Below the pieces are notes generated by a model. The model worked only from the letters and a program-made list of their open reading frames with translations, was not told where the DNA came from and did no database searches. A stretch of 32,126 bases of DNA from a virus. Made by a program: the position numbers and the translations under genes. Every line of letters begins with the position of its first letter. Positions within the stretch are counted from its first letter, which is position 1. This document shows, piece after piece, positions 2,322 to 32,126 of this stretch. The stretch lies in IMG/VR virus record IMGVR_UViG_3300023179_006775, positions 1-32,126 of that record, one strand, 5' to 3'.

Positions 2322-3076
2322 TGATAGTTACCATACAAAGGAAGTTCTATCCTATTTCTAGGGCTTATGTATTTTGCCTTAAGTCGACCGAAAATTTCAG
2401 CCTGTTCCCCTGTACAGGTAAAGTCTATATTTTTACAAACTTCATCTAGATAAAGTTTACTTTTGTCAGTTATTAAATCTTTTAAGTATTGTTCTGCATA
2501 ATGGTAATGTTCTATTGGATCGGGGTGGCCATCTTCAATTGATGAAAATTCTTGCAGGGATTGATTAGTAACACAATGTTGAAAAATTTTTTTGGACATT
2601 GAAATTTCTTTGCTAGATAAATCTAAAATTTCATTGTGTAAAAAATGTCGATTATCCAAAGACATTACAAACCTATTTTTAATACCAAGTGTATCGAACA
2701 ATTGTACAGAATTGACAATCATTAACCATGTATCGTATATCCCATAGTTTTGTTTCCAAAAATGATTTTTCAAGAACTTTGTTTTTTCAGTACTAGGCCA
2801 ATTTTGAGGACCTCCATGGCAACACCAGCTAGGGTCGCCGTTTATTTCTTCTAACCAATTTAATCTACCAAAATTTGTTATGCCAATTAATACCAAATCA
2901 TTTTTATTAAACTTATAAAATTCGTTAGCCTCAATTAATCTATTATGAACCATTCTATTCGAAGATCCGGGCATACCTAAATTATAGTACTCATCAAAAT
3001 TGATTCCTATAAAATCAGCCCAAGTAGGCCAATAAAACCAATGCGTAAAACTACACCCAAAAGCAAAGCATCTCAT
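2318..3076 (-). CDS. SGNH/GDSL-hydrolase-like protein (paralog A)
   Basis: The 252-residue product starts MRCFAFGCSFTHW: a beta strand ending in G-C-S, with Ser9 in the nucleophile position of SGNH hydrolases. An NLGMPGSSN block (residues 32-40) fits the conserved Gly and Asn blocks that shape the oxyanion hole. Near the end EDGHPDPIEHYHYAEQYL (residues 181-198) supplies the Asp/His pair. This family includes esterases and sugar O-acyl transferases or deacylases; with no signal peptide it should act in the cytoplasm, probably on a sugar intermediate. It is one of six such proteins in the window and sits back to back with paralog B, with which it shares PTWADFIGINFDEYYNLG-type sequence, so tandem duplication is likely. 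Confidence 0.62.
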   Translation of the reverse strand: MRCFAFGCSFTHWFYWPTWADFIGINFDEYYNLGMPGSSNRMVHNRLIEANEFYKFNKNDLVLIGITNFGRLNWLEEINGDPSWCCHGGPQNWPSTEKTKFLKNHFWKQNYGIYDTWLMIVNSVQLFDTLGIKNRFVMSLDNRHFLHNEILDLSSKEISMSKKIFQHCVTNQSLQEFSSIEDGHPDPIEHYHYAEQYLKDLITDKSKLYLDEVCKNIDFTCTGEQAEIFGRLKAKYISPRNRIELPLYGNYH

Positions 3077-3855
3077 AGATTTTTCAACTTAGTGTCATTA
3101 ATAAAATTTTTCAACTGAACCTTATAAGAAGAATACCAGTTCTGTTGGGATCGTAAGGTGTCAAATTGGAAATTTTGTTCGCAATAATTGAAAAACTTTT
3201 CAGAAGATTGATTAACAAAATCTGGAAAATATTTTTTAAAATAATTGTAATGTTGTTTGATAGAAGGATGGCGATCAGTAGTTCCGTCTTCAAAAGTATA
3301 CCCTAACATTTCTCCCGCGGGCATGGTTGTTATTGTAAAGTTATCAATGTCGTCTTTAATCGAATGAAGATCATAAAATTGATTTAATAAAGAGTTTGTT
3401 TCGTTGTTTTGATATTGAAAGTTAATGTTAGAAACTGCCCCATAAACAATGTGTAGAACATTAAGGCTGTTTAAAATAACCTTTATGGTTTTAAGAGCAA
3501 GCAGAGACCGATAAGATGAAAAATATACACTGTCAAATTCTTTTGCCCATAACTGCTGTAATCTGTCGTGATAATGTTTAAGAGGAAATATGTCGCCGCT
3601 GTGATTCCATTCCTTCTTATCTTTATTATAGATGCTGAACCTGCCAAAGCCAGTGGTTCCGATTAAAATAAGATCGGTATTATTAAAATTGTAAATATCA
3701 TTGGCTTTAATTATCTGATCAACTATAAATGTATTTGATGATCCCGATATACCTAAATTATAATATTGGTTAAAATTTATTCCTACAAAATCAGCCACAG
3801 TTGGCCAATCATGAGAAGTATAACTACAGCCAAAGGCAAAACATCTTTCTTTCAT
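3073..3855 (-). CDS. SGNH/GDSL-hydrolase-like protein (paralog B)
   Basis: The 260-residue product begins MKERCFAFGCSYTSHDW with Ser11 as likely nucleophile, followed by PTVADFVGINFNQYYNLG and GSSNTFI, nearly the same order as paralog A. The C-terminal His block is TDRHPSIKQHYNYFKKYFP (near residue 215). It overlaps paralog A by four bases and the preceding methyltransferase by four, so this is a tightly coupled translational chain. A minus-strand ORF at 3111-3293 lies inside it in another frame and is a shadow. Enzymatic activity is not demonstrable from sequence; it could be an acyl transferase or esterase acting on sugars. Confidence 0.6.
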   Translation of the reverse strand: MKERCFAFGCSYTSHDWPTVADFVGINFNQYYNLGISGSSNTFIVDQIIKANDIYNFNNTDLILIGTTGFGRFSIYNKDKKEWNHSGDIFPLKHYHDRLQQLWAKEFDSVYFSSYRSLLALKTIKVILNSLNVLHIVYGAVSNINFQYQNNETNSLLNQFYDLHSIKDDIDNFTITTMPAGEMLGYTFEDGTTDRHPSIKQHYNYFKKYFPDFVNQSSEKFFNYCEQNFQFDTLRSQQNWYSSYKVQLKNFINDTKLKNL

Positions 3856-4562
3856 TTTACTTTAATATGCGCTATTTTTAAACTAGTATCGCGAGGCATC
3901 ATATCTATAACATTTGTGATTACAAAGCCTGCTGGCTCGCCAATTTTTTCACTGAAATAAGTGAATACTGTTTCATGTAAGGTAATAAAAACATCAGCAT
4001 CCTCTGTAATATAATTTTTCAAATTGTTAAAACATTCCCGATGACACTCAAACTCTTCATCTACAGCTAATCTTAGACTATGATTGATATGTTCATCCGT
4101 CAAGTTATCTTTTTTACCTTGTTGAATAAAATAATCACCATTCATACTATTAGGCGGGTTCCCTACAACAAGATCCCATTTTTCAGTTAATGGAATACTT
4201 GATACCACGGGCGTTATATAACCTTTAACACGGCTTTCGTATCCTAAGTTTTTGGCATTCTCTAATGAAACATTTACTGCTACATCGTAATAATCACTAA
4301 CGGTTAAATTTTCACATTTACCATGAGTTAAAATTTCAAAACCAATTATAGAATGTCCACAACACCATTCGTAAGCATTTACATACTTAGGTTTTCCGTA
4401 GTCAGATAGGGCACGTAGGAAATAATGCCTATAATCACCGCCACCACCATCTAAATACCATGGATGATAAAGTTTTTGACCGTTAGTTAAAATTGAAAAC
4501 TTAGATTCATGGGCGTTCATTCCTTCTAACACCTGTTGATTATTTGTAGGCCAGAGTTTCAT
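3852..4562 (-). CDS. Class I SAM-dependent methyltransferase with NPPN motif
   Basis: The 236-residue product has an N-terminal LDGGGGDYRHYFLRAL block, the YEWCCGHSIIGFEIL glycine-type motif I, a SDYYDVAVNVSLENA acidic loop and DLVVGNPPNSMNG as motif IV. The layout matches the 979-1761 gene closely (GGG, W-C-x-G, GNPP), so the two are paralogs with different C-termini. GNPP motifs are typical of amide or amine N-methyltransferases, but this lineage sits in a glycan island and the acceptor is unknown. The start ATG overlaps the stop of an 18-codon mini-ORF (ATGA), and the 3' end overlaps the next SGNH-like gene. Confidence 0.75.
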   Translation of the reverse strand: MKLWPTNNQQVLEGMNAHESKFSILTNGQKLYHPWYLDGGGGDYRHYFLRALSDYGKPKYVNAYEWCCGHSIIGFEILTHGKCENLTVSDYYDVAVNVSLENAKNLGYESRVKGYITPVVSSIPLTEKWDLVVGNPPNSMNGDYFIQQGKKDNLTDEHINHSLRLAVDEEFECHRECFNNLKNYITEDADVFITLHETVFTYFSEKIGEPAGFVITNVIDMMPRDTSLKIAHIKVK

Positions 4563-4615
4563 TCAGTATCTTTAAAAAGTATATAATCGCAGGCTGTAAA
4601 CGGTGAGTGTCTCAT
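4559..4615 (-). CDS. 18-codon mini-ORF coupled at both ends
   Basis: Between the stop of the SGNH-like gene (4612) and the start of the methyltransferase (4562) the minus strand encodes MRHSPFTACDYILFKDTE and a stop. Its ATG overlaps the upstream TGA as ATGA, and its own TGA overlaps the downstream ATG as ATGA. That double overlap is the junction style of real gene pairs in this island. It may be a leader peptide that carries ribosomes across the gap, or the last trace of a deleted gene. I recognise no domain in it. Confidence 0.4.
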   Translation of the reverse strand: MRHSPFTACDYILFKDTE

Positions 4616-5403
4616 ATTAGCCATTTAAAATTAGGATAATTGTTTTTTAGAAAACAATGATATTCTTTGTTCCTTGTGTCAGACTTAGGATAAGATTTAA
4701 AAAAAAATTCATTTACAGTTTTATTATAAAATTTTTCTGACTCATCTGTATAATATTTGGGAAAAAACTTTTTTACATAAGAAAAATGACGAGGCTGGCC
4801 CGGATGGCCGTCTAATCCATGATCATCATTCACACTATGGCATTCATTTTCGCAGCGATAATCGTCGATGGCTGGAATATCTTCTATAAACTGAAAATGG
4901 GTCCTAAATTTTTCTAATGTATTTGAACCTAATGAAAGATCTTTTTCTAGTATAAATTTAGAATTCATGCCTTGAAAAATTTTGTGGTCAACATTTATGA
5001 AATTTAAAAAAGATTTTATTTGTATAACAGCATTTGATGTTCTTAAACAAGCCCAATCTAAATTCCAAAGCTCGTTAAAAAATCCTTCGAACTTAGACCA
5101 GTCTTGTAAACCTGCCTGTTTAATAGAATTTTGCCAATTGTATAAATCGCCCGTTGGCCAAGCACTTCGATGGTCATACCAGGTCAATCTGTTTACACCA
5201 GTTGTGGCAACAAAAATTACATCCGTGTCTTTGTTAAATTTATATTTTAAATTGTCTTCGTGTACAGTATCTAGTATATAGGTGTGATCACATCCACCTC
5301 GACCGTGGTTATAGTATTCGTCAAAATTTACCCCTATACAATCAGCCCATGTAGGGTATTGCCATTTTGTAAAACTACATCCATAAGCAAAAAATCTTTT
5401 CAT
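4612..5403 (-). CDS. SGNH/GDSL-hydrolase-like protein (paralog C)
   Basis: The 263-residue product starts MKRFFAYGCSFTKWQYPTW with Ser10 as likely nucleophile, followed by ADCIGVNFDEYYNHGRGG, an insertion-free match to the start of paralogs A and B. The C-terminal block LDGHPGQPRHFSYVKKFFP holds the Asp/His candidates in the same D-x-H-P-(x)4-H spacing. No signal peptide is present. It lies four bases after the E1-beta-like gene's stop and runs into the mini-ORF that leads to a methyltransferase, repeating the SGNH-then-methyltransferase order seen again at 3076-979. The function is inferred only at the level of ester chemistry on a small or sugar substrate. Confidence 0.6.
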   Translation of the reverse strand: MKRFFAYGCSFTKWQYPTWADCIGVNFDEYYNHGRGGCDHTYILDTVHEDNLKYKFNKDTDVIFVATTGVNRLTWYDHRSAWPTGDLYNWQNSIKQAGLQDWSKFEGFFNELWNLDWACLRTSNAVIQIKSFLNFINVDHKIFQGMNSKFILEKDLSLGSNTLEKFRTHFQFIEDIPAIDDYRCENECHSVNDDHGLDGHPGQPRHFSYVKKFFPKYYTDESEKFYNKTVNEFFFKSYPKSDTRNKEYHCFLKNNYPNFKWLI

Positions 5404-5406
5404 AAA

Positions 5407-5949
5407 TTAATTTAAGTAATATAATTCTGGATATTCAACTAACACATGCACACTCCTACTCGTGTAGGCATTTTTATAACTATCAAAAATACTGTTTTTA
5501 TCTACTAAATCATGAAAGGTTATGTTTTTACACATGCTTTTGAATTCATTGAAATAGTTTCCCTTATGTTGATGACCCGGGTCTAAGGGTTTGTCACTAC
5601 CCTTACCTAGTCTAACTAATAAACTAATGTCTTTTCCGGTCATTAACTTAAATTTATCAATATGATTGATAAGCTGATTAGCTGCCAAAATAATAAAATC
5701 CCATCTAGGATAAAAAGTTACTACGGTTTTACCAGTCATAGCAATACCGAGGCTCATACCCATCTGACTTTCTTCCATCACTGGCAATTCTACCATTGCC
5801 TGTTTGTCAACATTGGTCAGTGTTGTACTCATAGGGTTACCGGCATAGACAATTTGCTGTCCTATAAAAACAACATCCGACTGTTGGCCTAGCCAAGTCA
5901 TAGATTGTGTTAAAGCATCTTTATATGGGGTCATTTGTGGATTAGTCAT
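5407..5949 (-). CDS. Transketolase/E1-beta-like pyrimidine-binding domain
   Basis: The 180-residue product corresponds to the PYR domain of thiamine-diphosphate enzymes (the beta subunit of pyruvate dehydrogenase E1 and relatives). It has PYKDALTQSMTWL at the N-terminus, ELPVMEESQMGMSLGIAM with Glu59 in the place of the cofactor-activating glutamate, and FYPRWDFIILAANQLINHIDKF, the typical phenylalanine-rich strand and DQI-like helix. The usual C-terminal transketolase domain is missing; normal E1 beta subunits are about 325 residues. Its partner, the PP domain, is most likely the gene at 14222-14851, nine kilobases upstream. In glycan pathways such pairs may add a two-carbon branch to a sugar. 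Confidence 0.75.
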   Translation of the reverse strand: MTNPQMTPYKDALTQSMTWLGQQSDVVFIGQQIVYAGNPMSTTLTNVDKQAMVELPVMEESQMGMSLGIAMTGKTVVTFYPRWDFIILAANQLINHIDKFKLMTGKDISLLVRLGKGSDKPLDPGHQHKGNYFNEFKSMCKNITFHDLVDKNSIFDSYKNAYTSRSVHVLVEYPELYYLN

Positions 5950-6775
5950 TTTTATATTTTTGAATGCATGTAATTATATTTTCTGCTATTACTTTATGAC
6001 AACTAGGACTAGGATGATGATCTTTAGGGGTAATCTCAAATTCATTTTCGTCCCATTTAATCGTAAGCTCAGGATTGTATCCCTTATTTTGCATAGTTCC
6101 TGGGTGCATCAAATCCTCGATACTACGATAACGTATTCCTTTATATTCAAATTCTATTAACCTTTCTTTTAACCATGGATCATTATCTATTAACCTTAAA
6201 TACTCACTTGGCCAAGTATGAACTAGCGTTTTAATTCCATAACTTTCGCAATCTATTAAAAAAGATTTTACATATTCAAATCCACTGCGAATATATTGTT
6301 CTATCCAAGAATCCAAACTTAATTTTTCTCTTTCTAAGAATTTCAAAAAGAATTTTTTATTTTCTTCTTGATTACAGGCATGAAATGGCAAATTAAATTG
6401 TTTCCCATCAATCTCAAATTTAAAATTATCTCGCTCCCATTGAGTAAATTGGAAAACAAGATAAGAAATATCAGATTGTTGAAGTTTATGATTAAAACAA
6501 TCTTTCCACCAATTTACTGCTCCCTGATTACTTCCCCCGTTATGAGGATGGACTAATTCAAAGGTATCAAAATACTGGGCCACCAGTCGAGGGTATCGTA
6601 TCCTTTCAGCAAATTTCAAATGAGTTTCTCTAATCATTTTAGGATCGTACTGATCTGGTGGTGGTTCATCTAAACTTGGCAAATTGCTGTAATAGTAAAG
6701 TCCCTGTCCCCACGTGAAACTACAACCTGCAAAGATCATACCTTTCACAACTCTAGCATCTATTTTACTTTTCAT
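5942..6775 (-). CDS. SGNH/GDSL-hydrolase-like protein (paralog D)
   Basis: The 277-residue product has KGMIFAGCSFTWGQGLYYY at residues 11-29, with Ser19 as likely nucleophile, HNGGSNQGAVNWW as Gly/Asn block and PKDHHPSPSCHKVIAENI near the C-terminus as the Asp/His block. It is more diverged from paralogs A-C: the N-terminus is longer, and the region after the nucleophile carries an extra YSNLPSLDEPPPDQYDP loop. It overlaps the E1-beta-like gene downstream by eight bases and the small helical gene upstream by eleven, so it belongs to the same coupled series. A role in acylating or deacylating a sugar is inferred from context. Confidence 0.62.
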   Translation of the reverse strand: MKSKIDARVVKGMIFAGCSFTWGQGLYYYSNLPSLDEPPPDQYDPKMIRETHLKFAERIRYPRLVAQYFDTFELVHPHNGGSNQGAVNWWKDCFNHKLQQSDISYLVFQFTQWERDNFKFEIDGKQFNLPFHACNQEENKKFFLKFLEREKLSLDSWIEQYIRSGFEYVKSFLIDCESYGIKTLVHTWPSEYLRLIDNDPWLKERLIEFEYKGIRYRSIEDLMHPGTMQNKGYNPELTIKWDENEFEITPKDHHPSPSCHKVIAENIITCIQKYKND

Positions 6776-7181
6776 CGTTAGTCCAACTTATTTCCCAATC
6801 CTTAAAATCTGCGGCTAGGCAATCCACCTTATAATCTAATCTGCCGCCTACTATTTCTTGAATTTTATTTTTTCCCGTATTACGTATACCATTAAGACCG
6901 TGTGTCAATGCAAGATTTCCTTCTTTCATGCCTCTACGATAAGCAGATTCATTATGCCAAATATGTAAATTCATTTGACTTACAACCACAATCGCACGAA
7001 TAGTTTCTGCTGTAATTTTCGCATCCGTTTCATTTAATACAACCTGTATATCATGAACTATATCTGCGATTTCTTCGCTATAGTCCTGCTTATGTTCAGG
7101 AATAAACACTTCTTTGAGTTGTACTATGCTTAAACGATCAATTAAATCGCCTAATGTATGTAAATATTTTCTTTGGGTCAT
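6765..7181 (-). CDS. Small helical protein of unknown function
   Basis: The 138-residue product starts MTQRKYLHTLGDLIDRLSIV and looks all-helical: heptad-like stretches at about 8-25, 32-55 and 57-75, then a polar stretch with NLHIWHNESAYRRG and NTGKNKIQEIVGG. No catalytic motif or membrane segment is evident. Small proteins with a similar LGDLIDRLSIVxLK opening occur, as far as I recall, beside glycosyltransferases and nucleotide-sugar genes in bacteria, but I cannot name the family. It overlaps the SDR gene upstream by four bases (ATGA) and the SGNH gene downstream. Start and frame are well supported by these overlaps. Confidence 0.65.
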   Translation of the reverse strand: MTQRKYLHTLGDLIDRLSIVQLKEVFIPEHKQDYSEEIADIVHDIQVVLNETDAKITAETIRAIVVVSQMNLHIWHNESAYRRGMKEGNLALTHGLNGIRNTGKNKIQEIVGGRLDYKVDCLAADFKDWEISWTNDEK

Positions 7182-14221: not shown

Positions 14222-14851
14222 TTAAAAAGCGATCCATTTTCCCGATCCATAATGGGGATATTTAGATTTATATTCATAATGAATTACATTATCAGGTATA
14301 TTTCTTTTAACATTCCAGGTTTTATCTGTAGGTGTGTAAGTTGAAATACCGTTGTCTTCGACTACAAAATGTAAAGGTAAATTAAAATTTTGAGCATATT
14401 TATGGGCTTCGTAAAAAGAGCCTGTTTCAAAACTCATATCGCCGATAAAGCACCAAACTTTGTTCGGTTTATTATCTTTTTTAATAGACAAGGCGACACC
14501 TAGAGCAATTGGTATCGTTGAAGCCACTATGGCAGAGCTATAAAACTTTTTTTCCATATTACAAAGTGTAATAGATTTACCCTTTAATATTTCTTCTTCA
14601 ATCCATTGAGGATTAATAGGTTTTAATAAAGCATGATAATGACTACGCCATGTTGAAAACACCCAATCATCATCACTGATTCGTTTAAAAATTTCTATTA
14701 AAGGTTCTTCATTTCCGTCAGATAAATGAACTGGTCCTCTTATTTTAGCATCTTCCCAGTGTCTTACGATTTTTGTTTCAAAGTCTTTTAAATCATGTAC
14801 AGAGTAAACAGCGTCTCGTACTATTGGAAATTTTTCTAGGTTTTTAATCAT
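14222..14851 (-). CDS. E1-alpha/transketolase-like thiamine-diphosphate-binding domain
   Basis: The 209-residue product corresponds to the PP domain of thiamine-diphosphate enzymes. It shows RGPVHLSDGNEEP, WVFSTWRSHYHALLK (histidines where E1 alpha subunits have HGHALA), SSAIVASTIPIALGVAL, and the cofactor motif from GDM (137-139) through ETGSFYEAHKYAQNFNLPL to Asn167 in VVEDNGIS. The usual GDG is GDM here. Typical E1 alpha subunits have about 320-360 residues, so this is a trimmed form that ends just after the core (GKWIAF). It overlaps the RmlC-type gene by four bases. The matching PYR domain is at 5407-5949. A branched-sugar or other carboligation role is inferred. Confidence 0.78.
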   Translation of the reverse strand: MIKNLEKFPIVRDAVYSVHDLKDFETKIVRHWEDAKIRGPVHLSDGNEEPLIEIFKRISDDDWVFSTWRSHYHALLKPINPQWIEEEILKGKSITLCNMEKKFYSSAIVASTIPIALGVALSIKKDNKPNKVWCFIGDMSFETGSFYEAHKYAQNFNLPLHFVVEDNGISTYTPTDKTWNVKRNIPDNVIHYEYKSKYPHYGSGKWIAF

Positions 14852-19778: not shown

Positions 19779-20750
19779 TTATGTTTCGTAAGAAGATCTT
19801 TTAGGAATAATAATATCTGTACCACAATGGCAATGTTCTTTTTTGCAGATAATTGATTTAGGTCCTATTCCATCTATTTCATCTAAAATATTTCCCACAA
19901 ACCCTCCTTGACCGCAACTTGCTAAACTAATCGCCCCTGCCGGATTTATGAAAATTGCGTCACCAACATCGCATTGCCAATATTTAAAAAAGTTTTGTCG
20001 TTCTACAATAATTTCATTACTGTTACAGTTTGCTTTAGTTTGATCGCTATACCTGCTGTAACTAACACAATTATTGGCTTTAGAAGGCTTAGGTACTGTA
20101 AAATTCATATCAACGGTATTATTTTCTAAGAACTTACCCATATTAGGATCTATATATTCCCAGGGTTTGGCATTTGAAGTCATTTCATTGAATAAAGGCG
20201 TCCATTCAATAAAATAGTTAGGCATTTTTTCTTTTAGTTTATTTCCAAAATTAACTACCTCCCAAAATCTTTCTTCATGCATCAACATTTTACATGCAAG
20301 GTAGTTAACTTTATCACAGAGGAATAATGCGTTATTTTCATAAACTTTTTTATTGGCAAATTCTATATGAAAGCTGGCTACTACATCATCAAACAAATGA
20401 TAATTCTCTTCCCACCATTTTAACGGTCGACTAAGATTTGTATTGACCGCTATGGTACAATCAGGGAGTTCTTCTTTCAAATATTTACAGATAGGAATAA
20501 GGTTTTTCCATACTGTAGGCTCTCCTCCGCTAAAGAAAAATTTAAAATGTCTATAGCCTGCGTCCTTGTATTTGGAAATAAACAAATCTAGATTTTGTAA
20601 GTAGGTTCCAAGATTGCCATCATTCTTTTCTGTTCCGCTCCAGTTTCCTGGATTACAATAACTACACTTAAAATTACAGTAATTGTTTACCTGCCACGTT
20701 ACCGCCAGATATTTTTCTTTGGCAAATATTTCTATTAGTTTTTTGCCCAT
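19779..20750 (-). CDS. Radical SAM enzyme with C-terminal cysteine-rich region
   Basis: The 323-residue product has an immediate radical SAM core: WQVNNYCNFKCSYCNPGNW with Cys25, Cys29 and Cys32, then FFFSGGEPTVWKN (SAM amino group motif), and TIAVNTNLSR. The C-terminal part has Cys260, Cys279, Cys302, Cys307 and Cys309 (QCDVGDAIFINPAGAISLASC and CKKEHCHCG), which looks like an auxiliary cluster domain of the SPASM/twitch type. Unlike the next three it has no N-terminal twitch domain. Such enzymes often modify peptides or carbohydrates. Its start lies 16 bases inside the previous radical SAM gene. Confidence 0.85.
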   Translation of the reverse strand: MGKKLIEIFAKEKYLAVTWQVNNYCNFKCSYCNPGNWSGTEKNDGNLGTYLQNLDLFISKYKDAGYRHFKFFFSGGEPTVWKNLIPICKYLKEELPDCTIAVNTNLSRPLKWWEENYHLFDDVVASFHIEFANKKVYENNALFLCDKVNYLACKMLMHEERFWEVVNFGNKLKEKMPNYFIEWTPLFNEMTSNAKPWEYIDPNMGKFLENNTVDMNFTVPKPSKANNCVSYSRYSDQTKANCNSNEIIVERQNFFKYWQCDVGDAIFINPAGAISLASCGQGGFVGNILDEIDGIGPKSIICKKEHCHCGTDIIIPKRSSYET

Positions 20751-22021
20751 TCATAGACCTCTTTTAATTCTGGTATTATTTCTAAAATGTTTTCTTTCCG
20801 TGTTGCATCAACTTCGTCGTTATATTTTATAAACTCAAGTAACCCTTCCTTATTAGGCGAGCCACTTTGAATTGTATATATTACCATCTTGAACGCATTT
20901 TTCAAATCCTTATTAAATTCATACTTATCTAGAGATTTAACCCAACGTTGACATACTTTATCCTTAACATGCTGTGGTAAAATTTGAACATTTGCATACC
21001 AAGGATAGGTTAACAGGTTAAACCTCGCATTAGAATACCATCGAGGATTTTTAAAATCTAAAAGACCTTCTGTAACTAAATTATCAAAAAAATCTGGAAA
21101 TAAAAAAACATTCCATATACTTATGGTAGGTGTGATTTGAAAATCTGCATGTGGTACCTCTTCTCGTAGTTTTTTAATATTTTCTACTATTTTATTCCAT
21201 TTAGTACCTTTTCTGAGTAATTCGGCCTGCCTTCCTTCAGCATCAAGGCTAGCCCAAATCTTAATGTTAGGAAACTTTTTCCATAGTTTAATAAGATCCC
21301 TATTTTTGTACTTCAAAACACTAAAATTGGTTGTATATGTAAGCTCTACCTGTTCGGTTAGATCGTTTTCAATCCAATAATCTAAACATTCATAATGTTC
21401 AGGAGTAATGATAACCTCACCACCTGCAAAGTACACTTCAGTAACATCTTTCAAATAAGGTTTTAGTTTTGTCATAAAAACTTGATCTTCATTACTATTA
21501 ACAACAATAGTTTTCATTCCAAAAAACTTTTCTAACTGTTCATATCCCCATTTTTCTTTTACATATTCTTCAGCCCATTGGCTAGAACATCCTGGGCCAC
21601 AGCTTCGACATTTCATATTACAAAGATTACTAAATCTAATATCCATGTACTTCATTTGAAAATCGTCGATACTTCCGTCATCGTTTGTCTTTGAAATTAA
21701 ATCCAGATATTCAAATCCTCTCCGTTTGTTATGACTTTGACGCATAGTCCATGTGCCTAGCAATTCTAAATCGTAGCATCTTTTACATTCGGCACTGGGC
21801 TTATCGTCAAGCATGTCTCTGCGTAGGCGCTTAAAGTCGTCACTATTCATCATTTCAATGATAGACTCGTCTTTCTTAAGATGGCCAACTGGCTTATCAC
21901 TATCAGCTATACAGCAAGGCATAACTTTGCCGCTAGGCCAAGAATGGAAATGAACCCACGGTAATACACAAAAATGTTTGCCAGTTTTAAGCAATTCTTT
22001 AATTTTATCTTTTTCAATCAT
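20735..22021 (-). CDS. Radical SAM enzyme with N-terminal twitch domain (copy A)
   Basis: The 428-residue product has an N-terminal cysteine domain at about 15-95: HFCVLPWVHFHSWPSG, VMPCCIADSDKP and CKRCYDLELLG (Cys18, Cys36/37, Cys79, Cys82), where an auxiliary Fe-S cluster would bind. The radical SAM core follows: MDIRFSNLCNMKCRSCGPGC with Cys134, Cys138, Cys141, and YFAGGEVIITPEHY as GGE motif. It ends ENILEIIPELKEVY, a variant of the N-x-x-F/I-x-x-x-x-P-E tail seen in its paralogs. This architecture is known as N-twitch radical SAM; its reactions are unknown to me. The end overlaps the 323-residue radical SAM gene and the start overlaps copy B by eight bases. Confidence 0.85.
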   Translation of the reverse strand: MIEKDKIKELLKTGKHFCVLPWVHFHSWPSGKVMPCCIADSDKPVGHLKKDESIIEMMNSDDFKRLRRDMLDDKPSAECKRCYDLELLGTWTMRQSHNKRRGFEYLDLISKTNDDGSIDDFQMKYMDIRFSNLCNMKCRSCGPGCSSQWAEEYVKEKWGYEQLEKFFGMKTIVVNSNEDQVFMTKLKPYLKDVTEVYFAGGEVIITPEHYECLDYWIENDLTEQVELTYTTNFSVLKYKNRDLIKLWKKFPNIKIWASLDAEGRQAELLRKGTKWNKIVENIKKLREEVPHADFQITPTISIWNVFLFPDFFDNLVTEGLLDFKNPRWYSNARFNLLTYPWYANVQILPQHVKDKVCQRWVKSLDKYEFNKDLKNAFKMVIYTIQSGSPNKEGLLEFIKYNDEVDATRKENILEIIPELKEVYEWAKN

Positions 22022-23255
22022 GTAATGTCTCTAACGAGGCAATCTCGGGGAAAGTTTTAAAAAAATCTTCGTTCCTTATCCTATCCAAATATCGTGTGTG
22101 TTTGAAAAATTGGTCTTTGGCTTCGGCCCATGTATCTTTAGCACTGGCAAAATTTATAGCGTTAGTGAGCAACTCATTTAATTTTGGATGAGTTTCTCCA
22201 TGAGAACTGATCAATTGCAGGTTTTTTTCTTTTGCTTGTTCTTTTAAAACCTTAGGCAAACTAGTAGCCGAATAGTATAAAGGGTTAACAGCAAGGTAAA
22301 GAGTTGTATGCCAGTCTCCATCTCTAATCAATTGTTTATCCTTCATGTAGGTATAGAACTCACTTAATGTCAGGTAATTAAAAAGACTGAAAACAGTATT
22401 AATTTGAAAACTGACAAAATCAAGATTACGCAAGGTTATCAAGTTACTTTCTACTTCACCCCAATTTGTGCCATGACGTAGCCATTCTGCCCGTTCACCG
22501 TAGTGGTCGATTGAACAACTTAATTCAATGCGCTTGAAGTGTTTCCATAGTTTAAGAATATCATGGTTTTTATATTTCATGTTACTAGCATTAGTATTAT
22601 ATCTTAAAACTTTATCTGTCTTACCTCTGCGTATCATCTCTTCTAACATAATATAATGTTCGTCAGTTATTAATGGTTCGCCACCAGCAAAGTAAGCGAT
22701 TTCGATATGATCAATGTGTTCTAGAACTTCCTCGATTAATGTACCTTTACCGTCATCGGCTTGAAAAAGGATAGGAAACTTTTCTCTACCAGGTAGAAGA
22801 CGTTCTTCTGCAGCCCATTGACTACTAAAATCAGATCCACAAGTCCTACATTTGAAGTTACAGATATTTCTAAAGCGAATATCAAAATATAGCATTTTAA
22901 ATTCAGGTAAAGATCCATCCTTATTAGTGGTATTAACTAACTCGTCAAAGTGCTGACCAAAATTATCAATTGAATACTTTCTAAAACTATGAGGGCCTGC
23001 TTCTTCGTGCTTATAACAAAAATTGCAATAGTCAGTCTTATCACCATTTAACATATTCAAACGAAGCTGTTTCATACTATCGCTATTAAAGGTCTGCTTT
23101 AGAGAACTATTTTTTACATTGGCAAATGTTCCATCGTAGCTGGTTGTACAACATGGATATATATCACCAGTCGGAGTAACATTAAGATGCGTCCAAGGAA
23201 ACATACAAAAAACTTTAGACTCTTTTAATAGATAATCTTTATTAAATTCAGTCAT
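22014..23255 (-). CDS. Radical SAM enzyme with N-terminal twitch domain (copy B)
   Basis: The 413-residue product has the N-terminal cysteine domain KVFCMFPWTHLNVTPTGDIY, PCCTTSYDG and CNFCYKHEEAG (Cys17, Cys35/36, Cys77, Cys80), the core motif FDIRFRNICNFKCRTCGSDF (Cys132, Cys136, Cys139), and YFAGGEPLITDEHY. It closes with RIRNEDFFKTFPEIASLE, a tail signature also present in the 464-residue copy and in the orphan fragment just upstream. The ATG sits inside the last codons of that fragment, the same coupled arrangement as between intact genes here, so the fragment was probably a full gene once. The ribosome binding site is weak. Confidence 0.85.
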   Translation of the reverse strand: MTEFNKDYLLKESKVFCMFPWTHLNVTPTGDIYPCCTTSYDGTFANVKNSSLKQTFNSDSMKQLRLNMLNGDKTDYCNFCYKHEEAGPHSFRKYSIDNFGQHFDELVNTTNKDGSLPEFKMLYFDIRFRNICNFKCRTCGSDFSSQWAAEERLLPGREKFPILFQADDGKGTLIEEVLEHIDHIEIAYFAGGEPLITDEHYIMLEEMIRRGKTDKVLRYNTNASNMKYKNHDILKLWKHFKRIELSCSIDHYGERAEWLRHGTNWGEVESNLITLRNLDFVSFQINTVFSLFNYLTLSEFYTYMKDKQLIRDGDWHTTLYLAVNPLYYSATSLPKVLKEQAKEKNLQLISSHGETHPKLNELLTNAINFASAKDTWAEAKDQFFKHTRYLDRIRNEDFFKTFPEIASLETLHD

Positions 23256-23359: not shown

Positions 23360-23926
23360 TCATTGTAAAAAACCAACTAACATTAGTCTGGGTTCCAGAG
23401 CATGAATGGCAACTTCGGAGACGAAATGAGGAATCTGTCCCTCCTGATGATCGATGATAACAAGATTATTAAATTGAGGAATATAAACATTAGCAGATAA
23501 GCCTTCGTTGACTGTTATTAATAATCCACCCCAATCCCATTTCCAATCTTTTGACAGGTACCAAATAAAACCAAAAGATGATTGGTAATCATCTTTATGT
23601 ATTCTAAAATGCCCTCCAGATGTCATTTTATAACATCGAAGGTCGTGATGTAAAAAAACACAGTTGGTCCGTTGTATTATGACAGGTAAAATATACTCTT
23701 CATAAACCTTTTTAATCAGAGCAGAGTTTTCTAAATATCGACTTCTATGATAATGTGCAGAGAATACTTCTTGAGGATCAGGTGTTGCTTGAAATTTTTC
23801 GTCCTTTTCTAAAGTATATTTTTTCCTTCTTTTTTGAATTACTTCATCGTAATCTGCATCAATAAAGGCCTGCCTTATTTTAAGTGCAATTTCATTAGGT
23901 ACAACATTATTCAATTGTTCAATCAT
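23360..23926 (-). CDS. 2-oxoglutarate/Fe(II)-dependent oxygenase, separate lineage
   Basis: The 188-residue product has the hydroxylase core: CYKMTSGGHFRIHKDDYQSS with His110 and Asp112 as HxD ligands, FGFIWYLSKDWKWDWGGLLI, IIDHQEGQIPHFVSEV with His167 as the distal ligand, and Arg180 in EPRLMLVGFLQ. It does not share the N-terminal region of the three tandem paralogs at 9771-11877 and is about 30 residues shorter, so it came from another line of the family. It sits between the 464-residue radical SAM gene and a remnant of another. An AAAGG element precedes the ATG by about nine bases. The substrate may be a peptide side chain or a sugar. Confidence 0.78.
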   Translation of the reverse strand: MIEQLNNVVPNEIALKIRQAFIDADYDEVIQKRRKKYTLEKDEKFQATPDPQEVFSAHYHRSRYLENSALIKKVYEEYILPVIIQRTNCVFLHHDLRCYKMTSGGHFRIHKDDYQSSFGFIWYLSKDWKWDWGGLLITVNEGLSANVYIPQFNNLVIIDHQEGQIPHFVSEVAIHALEPRLMLVGFLQ

Positions 23927-23959: not shown

Positions 23960-25354
23960 TCATTTAGAATTTATTTGACCTAATGACTTACACTCTTTAA
24001 AAAACTGTTTCATTTCCGGAAATGTAGCGATAAAATCAGTGTTGCGTCTGTAATCCAATTCAGAGAACCAGTTATAAAAGTCATGTCTACCTTCTATAAT
24101 TTTTGATTGGGAATAATTTGAAGATTCCATATATTTTACAATTCTACGAAACCTTTCAAACTCTACAAGACTAAACTTAAATGGATCATGATCGTCTGTG
24201 TTCTTTTCTATAAAACTTAGACAATCATACATGTAGGGCATATATTGTTCTTTTGGTAGAATATTGATGTCATATTGTAAAGGCTCTTTGAGATATGGAG
24301 TATCAAATCTTACCATCTGATGCTGAGAACTCTTATTAAATTTATTATACTTTTTCCTCCATTTTAAAATTTGTTGGAGTAATTTTTTAAAGGTTGTAAC
24401 AGAAAGAATATTAAACGTAATCATAAAACTTATTGGATATCCCACCTGTGTAAGATATCTATCAAGATTAGATTCCCAAAGCTCAAGATCCAATCCTGTT
24501 CTGATATACTCAGCTCTAGGTCCCCATGTATCTATACTAGTGAACAATTTAAAGGCTCTGATATTATCATTTTCAATAAGATGATTAACATTGGTAATGA
24601 GTTTATCCACCAAGGCTGTTTTAACACCTAGGTTACTGTTAACATTGAGCTCTAATCTAGGAGCAGGATTATTTTTTAAATCGTCAAATAATCTCCATGT
24701 GCTGGTATGCATGAGAGGTTCTCCGCCAGTGATACGTAAGATGGTTAGATCATTTCTAAGATTAGGCCACCATTTCCACCATGCATCTACATAGGGATTT
24801 GCCTCTTCCCGTTCATATAGCTTAAACCAATCTATATCACATCGATGATTATTCACCGAGGTAACAGGACCATGCTCTCGAATTTCATTATAAAATCTAC
24901 TACTGGCTTTGGGGTGACAATAACCGCATTTGAAATTACACTCATTTCCAAAACTTATTTCGACATATTCAGGATTGACATCATTTTTAGCACTCCCTTT
25001 GGCAATTTTTAGTCTATCTGGCGTATAGATGGCTGCACTCTTAATATGCCTATCACTGATATAATCCTTTCCCATATTTTCTATGTTCCAACAGTATCGG
25101 CATCCTGAAGTTTGAATACCTTTTTTCATCTCTTGACGTTCTACTTTTTTGTGCTCGGTATTATGCAGAGCACTGGGATTTAATTTTATCTCATCAATTT
25201 CAATCGCATGGGGAGCAGGATGATAACAACTATGATTTTCACCAGTCTGTAGGTATAAGGTCACATGAAACCATTTAGCCAAACAAAATGTTGGACTAAG
25301 GTTATTAATTAAAGGTATAACCTTTTGAATCCTTTGATGATCCGTATCACTCAT
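23960..25354 (-). CDS. Radical SAM enzyme with divergent N-terminal twitch domain (copy C)
   Basis: The 464-residue product has an N-terminal cysteine domain at about 20-95 (TFCLAKWFHVTLY, NHSCYHPAPHA, SGCRYCWNIENMG; Cys24, Cys43, Cys85, Cys88). It has one Cys where copies A and B have a Cys-Cys pair, and His/Pro follow it. The core motif is VEISFGNECNFKCGYCHPKA with Cys139, Cys143, Cys146; LRITGGEPLMHTSTWRL is the GGE region. The tail reads YRRNTDFIATFPEMKQFFKE, the shared signature. Its ATG overlaps the stop of the glycosyltransferase reading frame as it would be before the frameshift upstream. The reaction is unknown. Confidence 0.82.
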   Translation of the reverse strand: MSDTDHQRIQKVIPLINNLSPTFCLAKWFHVTLYLQTGENHSCYHPAPHAIEIDEIKLNPSALHNTEHKKVERQEMKKGIQTSGCRYCWNIENMGKDYISDRHIKSAAIYTPDRLKIAKGSAKNDVNPEYVEISFGNECNFKCGYCHPKASSRFYNEIREHGPVTSVNNHRCDIDWFKLYEREEANPYVDAWWKWWPNLRNDLTILRITGGEPLMHTSTWRLFDDLKNNPAPRLELNVNSNLGVKTALVDKLITNVNHLIENDNIRAFKLFTSIDTWGPRAEYIRTGLDLELWESNLDRYLTQVGYPISFMITFNILSVTTFKKLLQQILKWRKKYNKFNKSSQHQMVRFDTPYLKEPLQYDINILPKEQYMPYMYDCLSFIEKNTDDHDPFKFSLVEFERFRRIVKYMESSNYSQSKIIEGRHDFYNWFSELDYRRNTDFIATFPEMKQFFKECKSLGQINSK

Positions 25355-25424
25355 TCACTAGTTCCTTAAATGTTTTTTCTAACCATGCTCTATCATTAAT
25401 TTTGATTAACATAGACATATTATT
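25347..25424 (-). pseudogene. Displaced C-terminus of the twitch-glycosyltransferase fusion
   Basis: In the frame one base off from the fusion gene this stretch encodes NNMSMLIKINDRAWLEKTFK then ELVNE and TGA. It matches the end of the paralog at 26313, KNNKSQLLKINNIEWLKNQF. The break falls in a run of five A at 25423-25427; one more A restores EFFKNIKNN against the paralog's NFYLKNKNN. The restored stop overlaps the next ATG as ATGA-type coupling. It is a real one-base deletion or a homopolymer error in the sequence. Confidence 0.75.
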
Positions 25425-26326
25425 TTTATGTTTTTGAAAAATTCTCTGCCCTGTTCAATCCCTAGGATAGCATATAATTTAAAACTGCTATCTTTACTGA
25501 CCCAAGATGCAAGTTTTTTCTTTTCATTATTTTGGCAAAGTTTTACCGTTTCTCGAAAGGCGCTGCGCCAGGTGCTAAACTCATCTACATTAAATTTTGT
25601 AACATTACTTATTTTATTCATTACCTTAACACCTGCCCCTATTGTGGTGCTTAGATCCAAGCTAGTCCATTTATGCATTTTTAAAATTGCTTGTCTGGGA
25701 AAAAGTTTAACACCTCCATAGCCATAGTTTAGATCATTAAATGGATTGGCACTGACCCAGATGTAGACATATCGTCGATCAAATAAATCTGGCGAAAAAT
25801 CAAAATTCCAGTCATCCACTAACCATGCATCTCCATCTACCACATAGAACATATCAGTCTCTGCTATTTGGCCAGCAGCACGATGCGCTTCAAAAATTCC
25901 ATCTACCCCATTAACTCGCTTGGAGTAGGGTGCTTTGGATTTTACTCTACGCCAGTGTAGGTCAGCATCCGGTTCGTGGTAGCTGATAAAAACAACATCT
26001 AGTCTAGTGGCAAGGTCTAGGTCAATATATCCCATATCCTTGACCTGCGTGGCATTATCATCTAACTTGGCTCTTACAGCCCAGATTTTTTCTTCGTGTT
26101 TATAACATACCTTACATCCATCTATCAACTTTCCTTCAATCATATTGGTTCTAAGTTCTTTCATCTCAACGCTATTAACGATTTGATCTAAATTTTTGCC
26201 AGAAATGTTTCCAGTCTTACCGTGGGCAATACAACAAGGGTAAACATCACCTATAGGATTCGTATATACATGAACCCATGGTGCCAGACTAAATGAAGGA
26301 TTTTTGTCTATATTAAAAATTAACAT
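25406..26326 (-). CDS. Twitch-domain/glycosyltransferase fusion, frameshifted at the end
   Basis: The 306-residue product joins two unlike parts. Residues 1-78 are an N-terminal twitch domain like those of the radical SAM copies: SFSLAPWVHVYTNPIGDVYP, CCIAHGKTG and GCKVCYKHEE (Cys31/32, Cys71, Cys74; the first cysteine of the set is Ser13). Residues 80-293 match the C-terminal half of the glycosyltransferase at 26313: RLDVVFISYHEPDADLHW, GIFEAHRAAGQIAETDMF, YVVDGDAWLVDDW with D164-G-D166 as metal and nucleotide-sugar site, and FNVDEFSTWRSAFRE. The radical SAM core is absent. The last residues (KIICLC) differ from the paralog because of a one-base shift. A donor is not predictable. Confidence 0.78.
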   Translation of the reverse strand: MLIFNIDKNPSFSLAPWVHVYTNPIGDVYPCCIAHGKTGNISGKNLDQIVNSVEMKELRTNMIEGKLIDGCKVCYKHEEKIWAVRAKLDDNATQVKDMGYIDLDLATRLDVVFISYHEPDADLHWRRVKSKAPYSKRVNGVDGIFEAHRAAGQIAETDMFYVVDGDAWLVDDWNFDFSPDLFDRRYVYIWVSANPFNDLNYGYGGVKLFPRQAILKMHKWTSLDLSTTIGAGVKVMNKISNVTKFNVDEFSTWRSAFRETVKLCQNNEKKKLASWVSKDSSFKLYAILGIEQGREFFKNIKIICLC

Positions 26327-27491
26327 TTTTGAATTGGTTTTTTAACCATTCGATATTATTTATTTTTAATAATTGAGATTTATTATTTTTGTTTTTAAGG
26401 TAGAAATTTTTACCATCTTCTAGACCTCTTAAGGCAAATTCAGAATGTTGAACTTCTTTCTTAGTTACCCAATTGTTCAGTATAGTAGTTTGACCTTGGG
26501 CGCAGAGCTTAACAGATTCCCTAAATGCGGACCGCCAAGTTGAAAACTCGTCTTGATTAAATTCTGTAATGACACTGATCTTATTCATTACTTTGATATT
26601 AGGTGTTAAAGTAGTGGTAAGATCTAAAGTAGGCCACTTCTTTGCCTTAAGCAAATTATATTTAGAAAATAACTTCACACCTCCGTAACCGTAGATAAGA
26701 TCATTATAGGGATTTTTAGATAACCATATATAAGTACAATCCCTATCAAAAATACTAGGATCAAATTGAAATTTCCAGCTATCAACTAACCAAGCATCAG
26801 CATCTACAACAAAAAACATTTCTGTTGTACTAATTTCTGCTGCCTTCTGATGCGCTTCAAAAATTCCTTTGACCCCATGTATCCTTTTAGCCCAGGGTGC
26901 TTTTTCCAGAACTCTACACCAGTTTTTCTCTGCTATAGGTTCGTCATAACTAAGAAAAACGACATCTAGTCTACTGGGCAGATTGGGCTTAACTAGGCCC
27001 ATGTCTATTATTTCTATCGGATCAGCATTGACAGGCAAACATTTAAAGGCCCAAACCTTATCCTTTAAAAAGTGAGTTTTAGGATCAAGATACCAAACTA
27101 ATTCATGTTTCGATTCCCAAGGATCCGGGAAGTAGTTTTTATATTCAGTTTGATCAAAATTAGTGTGCCTTCCTAAAGAAGGATTTATAACCCATTTAAG
27201 TTTGGGTAATTCGATCTCTACTGAAACATAACCTTTTTTGGGGTTCCAACCGGATGGAAAATGTTTGGCTATCCATTCACCTTTCCATTTCAGTACAGTG
27301 CATTTAACAGTTTTCTTAATATTTCTTACAAAATAAAAAGGTTTAGTGTCAGATGCCCATGGATTTAGGATAATGAAAGGTTGGTCATTAGGACCTAATT
27401 GATAGAGAGATTGGTCGTAGGTTTTGGAATCACCAGTCCATTCAATCTCTTTAACTTGATCTGAACTGATGATTAAAATATCATTTATCAT
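26313..27491 (-). CDS. DXD glycosyltransferase of the marine-phage type
   Basis: The 392-residue product has a distinct N-terminal region (1-150, SDQVKEIEWTGDSKTYD...) and a catalytic-type region at about 173-375: RLDVVFLSYDEPIAEKNW, GIFEAHQKAAEISTTEMF, FFVVDADAWLVDSW with D230-A-D232 as the likely metal/nucleotide-sugar site, and YGYGGVKLFSKYNL. Such proteins are frequent in marine T4-like phages. No signal peptide is present, so it would act in the cytoplasm. It is the first gene after the structural genes and overlaps the fusion gene by 14 bases; a promoter-like sequence precedes it, so it could open the island's transcript. Confidence 0.72.
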   Translation of the reverse strand: MINDILIISSDQVKEIEWTGDSKTYDQSLYQLGPNDQPFIILNPWASDTKPFYFVRNIKKTVKCTVLKWKGEWIAKHFPSGWNPKKGYVSVEIELPKLKWVINPSLGRHTNFDQTEYKNYFPDPWESKHELVWYLDPKTHFLKDKVWAFKCLPVNADPIEIIDMGLVKPNLPSRLDVVFLSYDEPIAEKNWCRVLEKAPWAKRIHGVKGIFEAHQKAAEISTTEMFFVVDADAWLVDSWKFQFDPSIFDRDCTYIWLSKNPYNDLIYGYGGVKLFSKYNLLKAKKWPTLDLTTTLTPNIKVMNKISVITEFNQDEFSTWRSAFRESVKLCAQGQTTILNNWVTKKEVQHSEFALRGLEDGKNFYLKNKNNKSQLLKINNIEWLKNQFKNVNF

Positions 27492-30488: not shown

Positions 30489-32126
30489 TTAACCTAATTG
30501 ATCGGGCCAGGGGCCGTTTACATTAGTGGACACAGTAAAATTAGCAGAGGTCACACTTAGGTAGACCCCTGTAGGTGCAGGTGTTGGGGCCGGAGTCGGT
30601 GCAGGTGTTGGACTTGGAGTAGGTGCTGGTGTTGGAGCCGGAGTAGGTGCTGGTGTTGGAGCCGGAGTAGGTGTTGGTGCCGGTGTTGGACTTGGCGTAG
30701 GTGCAGGTGTTGGAGCCGGAGTAGGTGTTGGTGTTGGAGCCGGAGTAGGTGTTGGTGCCGGTGTTGGAGCTGGTGTTGGTGCAGGTGTTGGACTTGGCGT
30801 AGGTGCTGGTGTTGGACTTGGAGTAGGTGCAGGTGTTGGAGCCGGAGTAGGTGTAGGCGCAGGAGTTGGTGCTGGAGCCGGAGTAGGTGCTGGTGTTGGA
30901 GCCGGAGTAGGTGTTGGTGCCGGTGTTGGACTTGGCGTAGGTGCAGGTGTTGGAGTGGGGGTTGGAGTGGGGGTGGGACCAGACCCCACCGGTGTAGATG
31001 TACTAAGGATGATTTTTTGGATTATGAAATCATTTAATCCAGAGCCAACATCAATATAACCATGAAAATATTCACTATTATAGTAGTCTATCCATACTCC
31101 GCTTCTATTTCCGCCGGACAGAGATATTGGGTTCCACCAGGTATTCTCATGTTGTCCCTGCCCTGATCCAGACCCTGTAAAGGCCATGACAAAGTTATTT
31201 TTATTTGTTGAACTTAAACTGCCCCAATTGCTATCTGCACCTGGTAAGGGATAAGACTCGCTTTCCCCGGATATGAATATGGTCCCGCTGCCTGTGATCA
31301 TCACATCATGAGCACCATCCTGTTCAGTAGACCCTACAATAGAATTTATTTCTACAGTGCCGCTGTCGGAATACCTCCTAACCCAAGCATCAAGATTACC
31401 ACGATAGGTAGCTCCATCTATTGATTGTGTGGCTTCACCTGCCACATAAATTTTTCCATCTAAAAATTTTAAACTGTAGATAATAGGACTGTAATAGCCA
31501 ATTGCACCACCTATGGACTGACTCCAAACTAGGCTACCGTCCGTGGCACTATGTTTACGCACATATGAACTTCGAACACCTGCACTGGCAGCAATGTAAA
31601 AATAATTACCTCCAGGTTCAACTGTGTTTAAAGTAAAACTTTTACTCCCACCGGCATATGCATCAATCTCCGGAGGATCACTACTGATAAAAAATCCACC
31701 ATTAGCATTCATGGCCGTTGTGAGATTGCTACTACTTGTGGCAGCAGACCATGCCTGAGGTGTTACCTTGCCTAGAAAACAAGCCGAACTATGGGAGCCG
31801 CTGACAAATAGATTCCCTTGAGAATCTACACTTAGCCCAGAAATTACAGTTTGATTTTGACCGTCTCGCAAACGTCTATATTGATATACGGAAGGAGTCA
31901 GTGGATCTGGTATCTTGATAATCAAACCATCATTGAGACTGGCATTATCATCTGCAGTTTTTCTACCATAGATATAGACAGCTCCAGAACTAGAGTCTGA
32001 GACTATGCCATTAAAAAATACAACCTTATTGGCAAACTTAAAAAGATATTCGTTCACCAGCTGGCCTGACAGATTATATCTGGCCAGAATACCGGTGCTA
32101 CCACCGGCATTTTCGTAGGTAGATCC
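30489..32126 (-). CDS. Beta-propeller-like structural protein with Pro/Thr stalk, 5' end outside window
   Basis: The frame is open to the window edge (545 codons visible), so the GTG at 32057 that looks like a start is probably internal (upstream residues read [20 protein letters not shown]). About 350 residues consist of propeller-type blades with SBBP-like repeats: [54 protein letters not shown]. Then come 136 residues of alternating Pro with Thr, Ala or Ser, and a 26-residue tail ([19 protein letters not shown]). A propeller head on a rigid stalk is what a phage adhesin or host-range fibre could look like. The product would be in the virion, with the following gene as its partner. Confidence 0.65.
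30570..30977 (-). repeat. Pro-Thr/Pro-Ala coding repeat (stalk)
   Basis: The 408 bases encode 136 residues in which every second residue is Pro and the others are Thr, Ala or Ser ([15 protein letters not shown] type). At DNA level, six-base steps such as GGTGTT, GGAGCC, GGAGTA and GGTGCC recur in higher-order units. This favours slippage and variable length and can also mislead assembly. The encoded peptide should be an extended, stiff polyproline-like rod. Confidence 0.93.

Follow-up and report, generated by a model that had tools for sequence, protein, structure and literature searches.

The window analysed here, a metagenomic virus record of 32,126 bases (IMG/VR), carries on its minus strand a chimeric ORF (P0001) situated between an intact glycosyltransferase (GT) gene, GT392, and a gene for an N-twitch radical SAM enzyme, RS464 (Table 1). 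The chimeric join is real in the sequence itself: a single minus-strand ORF of 306 amino acids encodes a twitch domain and then a GT domain, and the boundary between KHEE and KIWAVR is as sharp as the initial annotation had described it. The same annotation had matched the GT part to the gene next door, and this also holds, residues 78-298 being 53% identical to the product of GT392. Searches for tRNA genes and Rfam families gave no match anywhere in the window.

Table 1. Chimeric ORF, its parts and the neighbouring genes, with positions in the window.
Feature	Positions	Strand	Basis or remark
Chimeric ORF P0001	25406..26326	-	306 aa, open by translation; its start lies inside the last codons of GT392
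Start of an N-twitch radical SAM gene (residues 1-79)	26090..26326	-	Pfam SPASM, NF033640, BtrN twitch fold
Codon 13, AGT (Ser); first cluster cysteine, elsewhere invariant	26288..26290	-	Alignment of domains
Join region	26080..26115	-	L005 homology breaks off; ~25 nt upstream still L005-like
Second half of the last repeat and GT-A domain (residues 80-298), DGD at 164-166	25433..26089	-	L005 DNA identity; GT-A fold via the paralog model
A5 run (A6 in L005), 1-nt deletion, frameshift	25431..25435	-	DNA alignment
Former coding sequence of the conserved GT C-terminus, now out of frame	25347..25430	-	Sequence; L005 in frame here; conserved I-N...W-L..F columns
Intact paralog GT392, with an N-terminal domain and one repeat ahead of its GT domain	26313..27491	-	Model; 25-nt ORF overlap with the chimera
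RS464, N-twitch radical SAM enzyme	23960..25354	-	NF033640, 292.9 bits (cut-off 170); usual successor of this GT family
RS413 ("copy B"), intact N-twitch radical SAM enzyme	22014..23255	-	NF033640, 370.7 bits
RS428, intact N-twitch radical SAM enzyme	20735..22021	-	NF033640, 372.4 bits

Judged by profiles and by a predicted structure, residues ~10-78 of the chimera are a twitch domain. The Pfam SPASM profile (PF13186) matches residues 15-75 with an E-value of 5.8e-9 and 36.6 bits, against a gathering cut-off of 21.5, and the NCBIfam profile N_Twi_rSAM (NF033640) matches residues 10-80 with an E-value of 9.8e-19. The second match covers profile positions 2-75 of 398 (74 positions) and scores 67.7 bits against a curated cut-off of 170. 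The radical SAM core was not found in P0001 by HMM or Pfam searches, and its CxxxCxxC motif is absent too. The two domains of the chimera were treated apart for folding, and the model obtained for residues 1-99 (pLDDT 87) has BtrN as its best match in the PDB (Foldseek rank 1, E 0.016, probability 1.00); a profile made from 50 related twitch domains also finds BtrN by sequence, at 2e-5. The VIA-align Z values, 6.1 to anSMEcpe and 4.1 to BtrN, are low, as is usual for small domains. The twitch fold that had been proposed for residues 1-78 was thus recovered both by model and by profile, with the twitch domain of BtrN as the best match.

The cysteine set attributed to these residues stood for three of its members, but not for the first cluster cysteine, which is replaced by Ser13. 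This position is a cysteine in 106/106 of the other aligned domains and, in a wider set, in 272/272, serine being found in the chimera only; in the alignment it lies opposite the first twitch cysteine of BtrN (position 169 of chain 4m7s). The four-cysteine set of the auxiliary cluster is incomplete in the chimera, where three remain; C13S is the one apparent defect of the twitch part. Compared with the N-twitch radical SAM proteins of NF033640, the chimera has the same N-terminal placement of the domain and the same C31/C32 and CxxC, but it stays below the cut-off set for full-length members, lacks the core and has a serine as its first ligand. Compared with BtrN (PDB 4m7s, 4m7t), its best match by profile and by fold, it differs in that the twitch domain of BtrN is C-terminal to a radical SAM core, whereas the chimera has no core and only three of the four cysteines. 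The auxiliary cluster of BtrN is bound by four cysteines (PMC9012708), and the twitch clusters of MoaA and SkfB are held by three protein cysteines (PMC6231123, PMC9012708). Because three cysteines suffice in these last two enzymes, C13S alone is no proof of cluster loss; the auxiliary cluster has likely been lost in the chimera, and the twitch part most likely does nothing, with one cluster ligand gone and no radical SAM core to serve.

The fold of the GT part was read from the paralog GT392, the model of which (pLDDT 89) adopts a GT-A fold. Foldseek relates it to SunS/ThuS, TarP and WrtF (1.6e-5, probability 1.00), and VIA-align superposes it on B4GALNT1 with a Z of 11.4 and 2.8 A over 136 residues. 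The likeness to the SunS/ThuS S-glycosyltransferases, TarP, WrtF and B4GALNT1 is one of fold, but sequence identity is ~10-15%, and neither the acceptor nor the sugar can be inferred. This phage GT family has no match in Pfam, PHROGs or NCBIfam, and no relative of the GT was detected when solved structures were searched by sequence. In the nearest family members the GT domain comes last, preceded by an N-terminal domain and by ~70-residue repeats, of which there may be one or many. With these phage repeat-GT proteins (GT392, and GT793 of the related IMG/VR contig L005) the chimera shares the GT domain and its DGD motif, together with the conserved core columns; among the 50 columns with a conservation of at least 95%, it departs at 124 (as does L005), 135, 152 and 306 only. 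The architecture of the family, however, is not preserved: half a repeat precedes the GT domain, the twitch domain stands in front of it, the N-terminal domain is missing and the conserved C-terminus has gone through a frameshift. Some glycosyltransferase activity of the chimera is possible.

The unnamed ~70-residue repeat ahead of the GT domain (..EHVWYLDPKF..KIWAVKI..GVKDMGY..NPDLP..) is present in the window at 26313-27491 and in another locus (L086) at 2586-5741; it occurs in one copy to many and has no match in Pfam.

The search for other proteins with the same architecture produced no second twitch-GT protein, and the chimera is unique within the loci examined. Our survey covered 267 sources, namely 266 related loci and the window, with twitch domains accepted up to an E-value of 1e-8, and yielded 206 distinct GT ORFs and 301 distinct twitch ORFs, among which no second ORF has a twitch domain before a GT domain. 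A radical SAM core accompanies the twitch domain in 289/301 of these ORFs and is lacking in 11 that lie at a contig end, so that the chimera is the sole internal exception. GT392 alone, used as a query against IMG/VR, gave no match, and neither the chimera nor GT392 was matched in 50,697 phage records. Cellular genomes contain 20 loci encoding the GT, several of them adjoining N-twitch genes, and at none of the 20 does a twitch domain precede the GT. A sister contig very close to the window may have escaped these searches. No twitch-GT fusion was found in the open-access literature. A single occurrence in a metagenomic record, at a join whose DNA pattern has 0 matches in other IMG/VR records, would be expected if the ORF were an assembly or library chimera, the halves of which never lay on one natural molecule.

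The surroundings of the join bear on this. In L005 the GT part of the chimera is found at 98.6% DNA identity (9 differences in 218 codons) inside GT793, whose 793-aa product has its repeat array at the N-terminus and lacks a twitch domain, and the homology between L005 and the window ends at the join. Just ahead of this point, 25 nt of the window have kept a resemblance to the flank of GT793, with a score of 12 that no control window reached. Within the last GT repeat the join falls mid-way, so that the KIWAVR strand is kept and the HEWYV strand that precedes it is lost. This short patch of similarity and the halved repeat fit illegitimate recombination better than the exchange of a whole domain. 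As for the other half, at the loci with short GTs (L053, L063, L065, L067, L080) the gene of an N-twitch radical SAM enzyme overlaps the end of the GT gene by 22 or 25 nt, and the overlap of GT392 with the chimeric ORF is 25 nt, like that of such pairs. From the overlaps and the gene order, the front of the chimera corresponds to the gene expected after GT392 and its back to the GT expected before RS464. No direct donor of the twitch part came to light; the nearest domain, from a search of 80 loci with a closer twitch set, is 52% identical.

Several changes in the chimera look like damage. Relative to L005, a 1-nt deletion at 25431-25435 ends the ORF early, as KNIKIICLC and a stop codon, and removes the conserved GT C-terminus. 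The GT part differs from L005 by 3 synonymous and 5 nonsynonymous codon changes, against 23 synonymous and 4 nonsynonymous changes for RS413 (Fisher p 0.015 between the two); the nonsynonymous excess, which rests on 8 codons, has a p of 0.049 when compared with the three radical SAM genes pooled and of 0.12 when compared with RS464 alone. The four amino-acid changes that were polarised with the help of another locus (L013) all fall on the side of the window, and two of them affect conserved columns, A135S (alanine in 56/58) and A152G (alanine in 58/58). In spite of the small numbers, C13S, the frameshift and the substitutions point to relaxed selection.

Returning to the possibility of a misjoined record, the similarity at the join is short, imperfect and far under the usual de Bruijn k-mer overlap, the front follows GT392 with a natural 25-nt overlap while the back runs into RS464 as it does in L005, and a misjoin would not be expected to bring extra substitutions and a frameshift. 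In view of this evidence, and of the single occurrence on the other side, we consider an artefact of assembly or library preparation unlikely.

The GT and N-twitch families meet also outside the chimera. Among the distinct full GT ORFs, 76/121 have an N-twitch radical SAM gene as their next gene, which is of the RS464 type in 56 cases. A natural fusion of 984 aa, encoded at 4128-7079 (+) in L016-L019 and L021, runs from repeats to a GT domain (291-540) and a complete N-twitch radical SAM enzyme (566-970); it is partial in L020 and L022, and since the five full copies are identical at the protein level, L016-L022 represent one virus population. Like the chimera, this fusion unites the two protein families in one polypeptide, but it runs repeats-GT-twitch-radical SAM and every domain is complete, whereas in the chimera the order is reversed and the core is missing. 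Other GT proteins end in an RS323-like radical SAM domain (L014 4392-6689, L024 4146-6758 and L069 1378-4227, +). L016, L024 and L069 share the linker that follows the GT, but beyond it L016 has another kind of radical SAM enzyme, and this points to an exchange of the C-terminal enzyme. In a few bacterial MAGs, too, GT and N-twitch genes are neighbours. A functional tie between the GT and the N-twitch enzymes is supported by gene order and by these fusions of opposite order, independently of the chimera, and with a large unnamed phage GT family tied to N-twitch enzymes, a shared glycan or carrier substrate becomes a testable idea.

Alternatively, the chimera could work as a protein of two parts, its twitch domain guiding the GT as a docking module, or as one that binds a carrier or a peptide, in place of the lost N-terminal repeats. 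The join is in frame and lies just after a complete twitch fold, GT genes are frequently followed by N-twitch genes (the 76/121 given above) and natural GT-twitch-radical SAM and GT-radical SAM fusions are known; yet there is one copy only, its domain order is opposite to that of the natural fusions, a GT repeat is cut in half and the protein has C13S, A135S, A152G and the C-terminal frameshift. We find a functional protein of this kind quite improbable. The initial annotation had offered as one of its alternatives a twitch domain used by both enzyme types to bind a carrier or substrate, and this idea is not supported, given the lack of a second case within the loci examined, the repeat cut mid-way and the decay. 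Less probable still is the specific version in which a twitch domain without core, holding a three-cysteine cluster, would be a docking or substrate-binding module in place of the GT repeats; if true, the domain would here be used without the radical SAM core to which it is otherwise tied in the loci examined.

The origin that we regard as probable is a recent accident of illegitimate recombination in a hypervariable surface/glycan gene region of a phage, and not a new two-part enzyme. An N-twitch radical SAM gene would once have directly followed GT392 and supplied the 5' end of the chimera; an L005-type repeat-GT gene (GT793) would have contributed its 3' half, joined on in frame where the two DNAs are briefly similar. 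The product would now be under relaxed selection, and it is probably decaying. The DNA shows the breakpoint with its microhomology and the damage, the two kinds of parental gene both exist, and within the loci examined the ORF is unique. The gene gains and losses between L005 and the window in this cluster, and the radical SAM cassette differences reported for pelagimyophages (PMC7029224), speak for the same origin. Against an accident speaks the reading frame, kept across the join and open for 306 codons; yet one random join in three would keep it. The other alternative of the initial annotation, recombination between neighbours, is retained in a modified form, as a join between two ordinary GT-to-radical SAM gene pairs.

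We infer that these two pairs came from two phage genomes. A deletion within one genome bearing GT392, an N-twitch gene and GT793 in tandem would give the same product in a single step, and tandem full-length GTs would account for the presence in the window of GT392 plus a second GT domain, but no locus with a full GT, an N-twitch gene and another full GT was met in the gene-order survey. We therefore give this variant a rather low probability, somewhat above that of a misjoined record and already contained in the one assigned to an accident as a whole.

The setting of the window fits published regions of radical SAM and glycosyltransferase genes: the host-recognition regions of pelagimyophages are reported to be hypervariable, to contain glycosyltransferases and to differ by radical SAM cassettes (PMC7029224), and one marine T4-like virus has 12 radical SAM genes (PMC5332604). 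The gene cluster of the window may modify a surface glycan. Read as an accident, the chimera neatly illustrates how fusion ORFs arise from phage mosaicism, with the parents, the patch at the breakpoint and early decay all visible, and it calls for caution, a single metagenomic fusion being poor evidence of function.

Other observations concern the window at large. Between 23944 and 26100 its DNA is ~98-99% identical to L005 from the join to ~24340 and 72-87% identical thereafter, and the drop near 24340 marks a second mosaic boundary, inside RS464. At 23360-23926 (L005 7606-8970) lies a 2OG oxygenase gene with an internal gap of 460 bp in L005; that contig also has one extra N-twitch radical SAM gene relative to the window, a turnover of cassettes in the same cluster. 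Short genes at 5407-5949 and 14222-14851 resemble, by eye, the beta and alpha parts of a putative TPP-dependent enzyme. Finally, a tandem array at 30570-30956 codes for a Pro-Thr-rich (PTPAPTP) tract within a beta-propeller-like protein of 522 aa (30489-32057).
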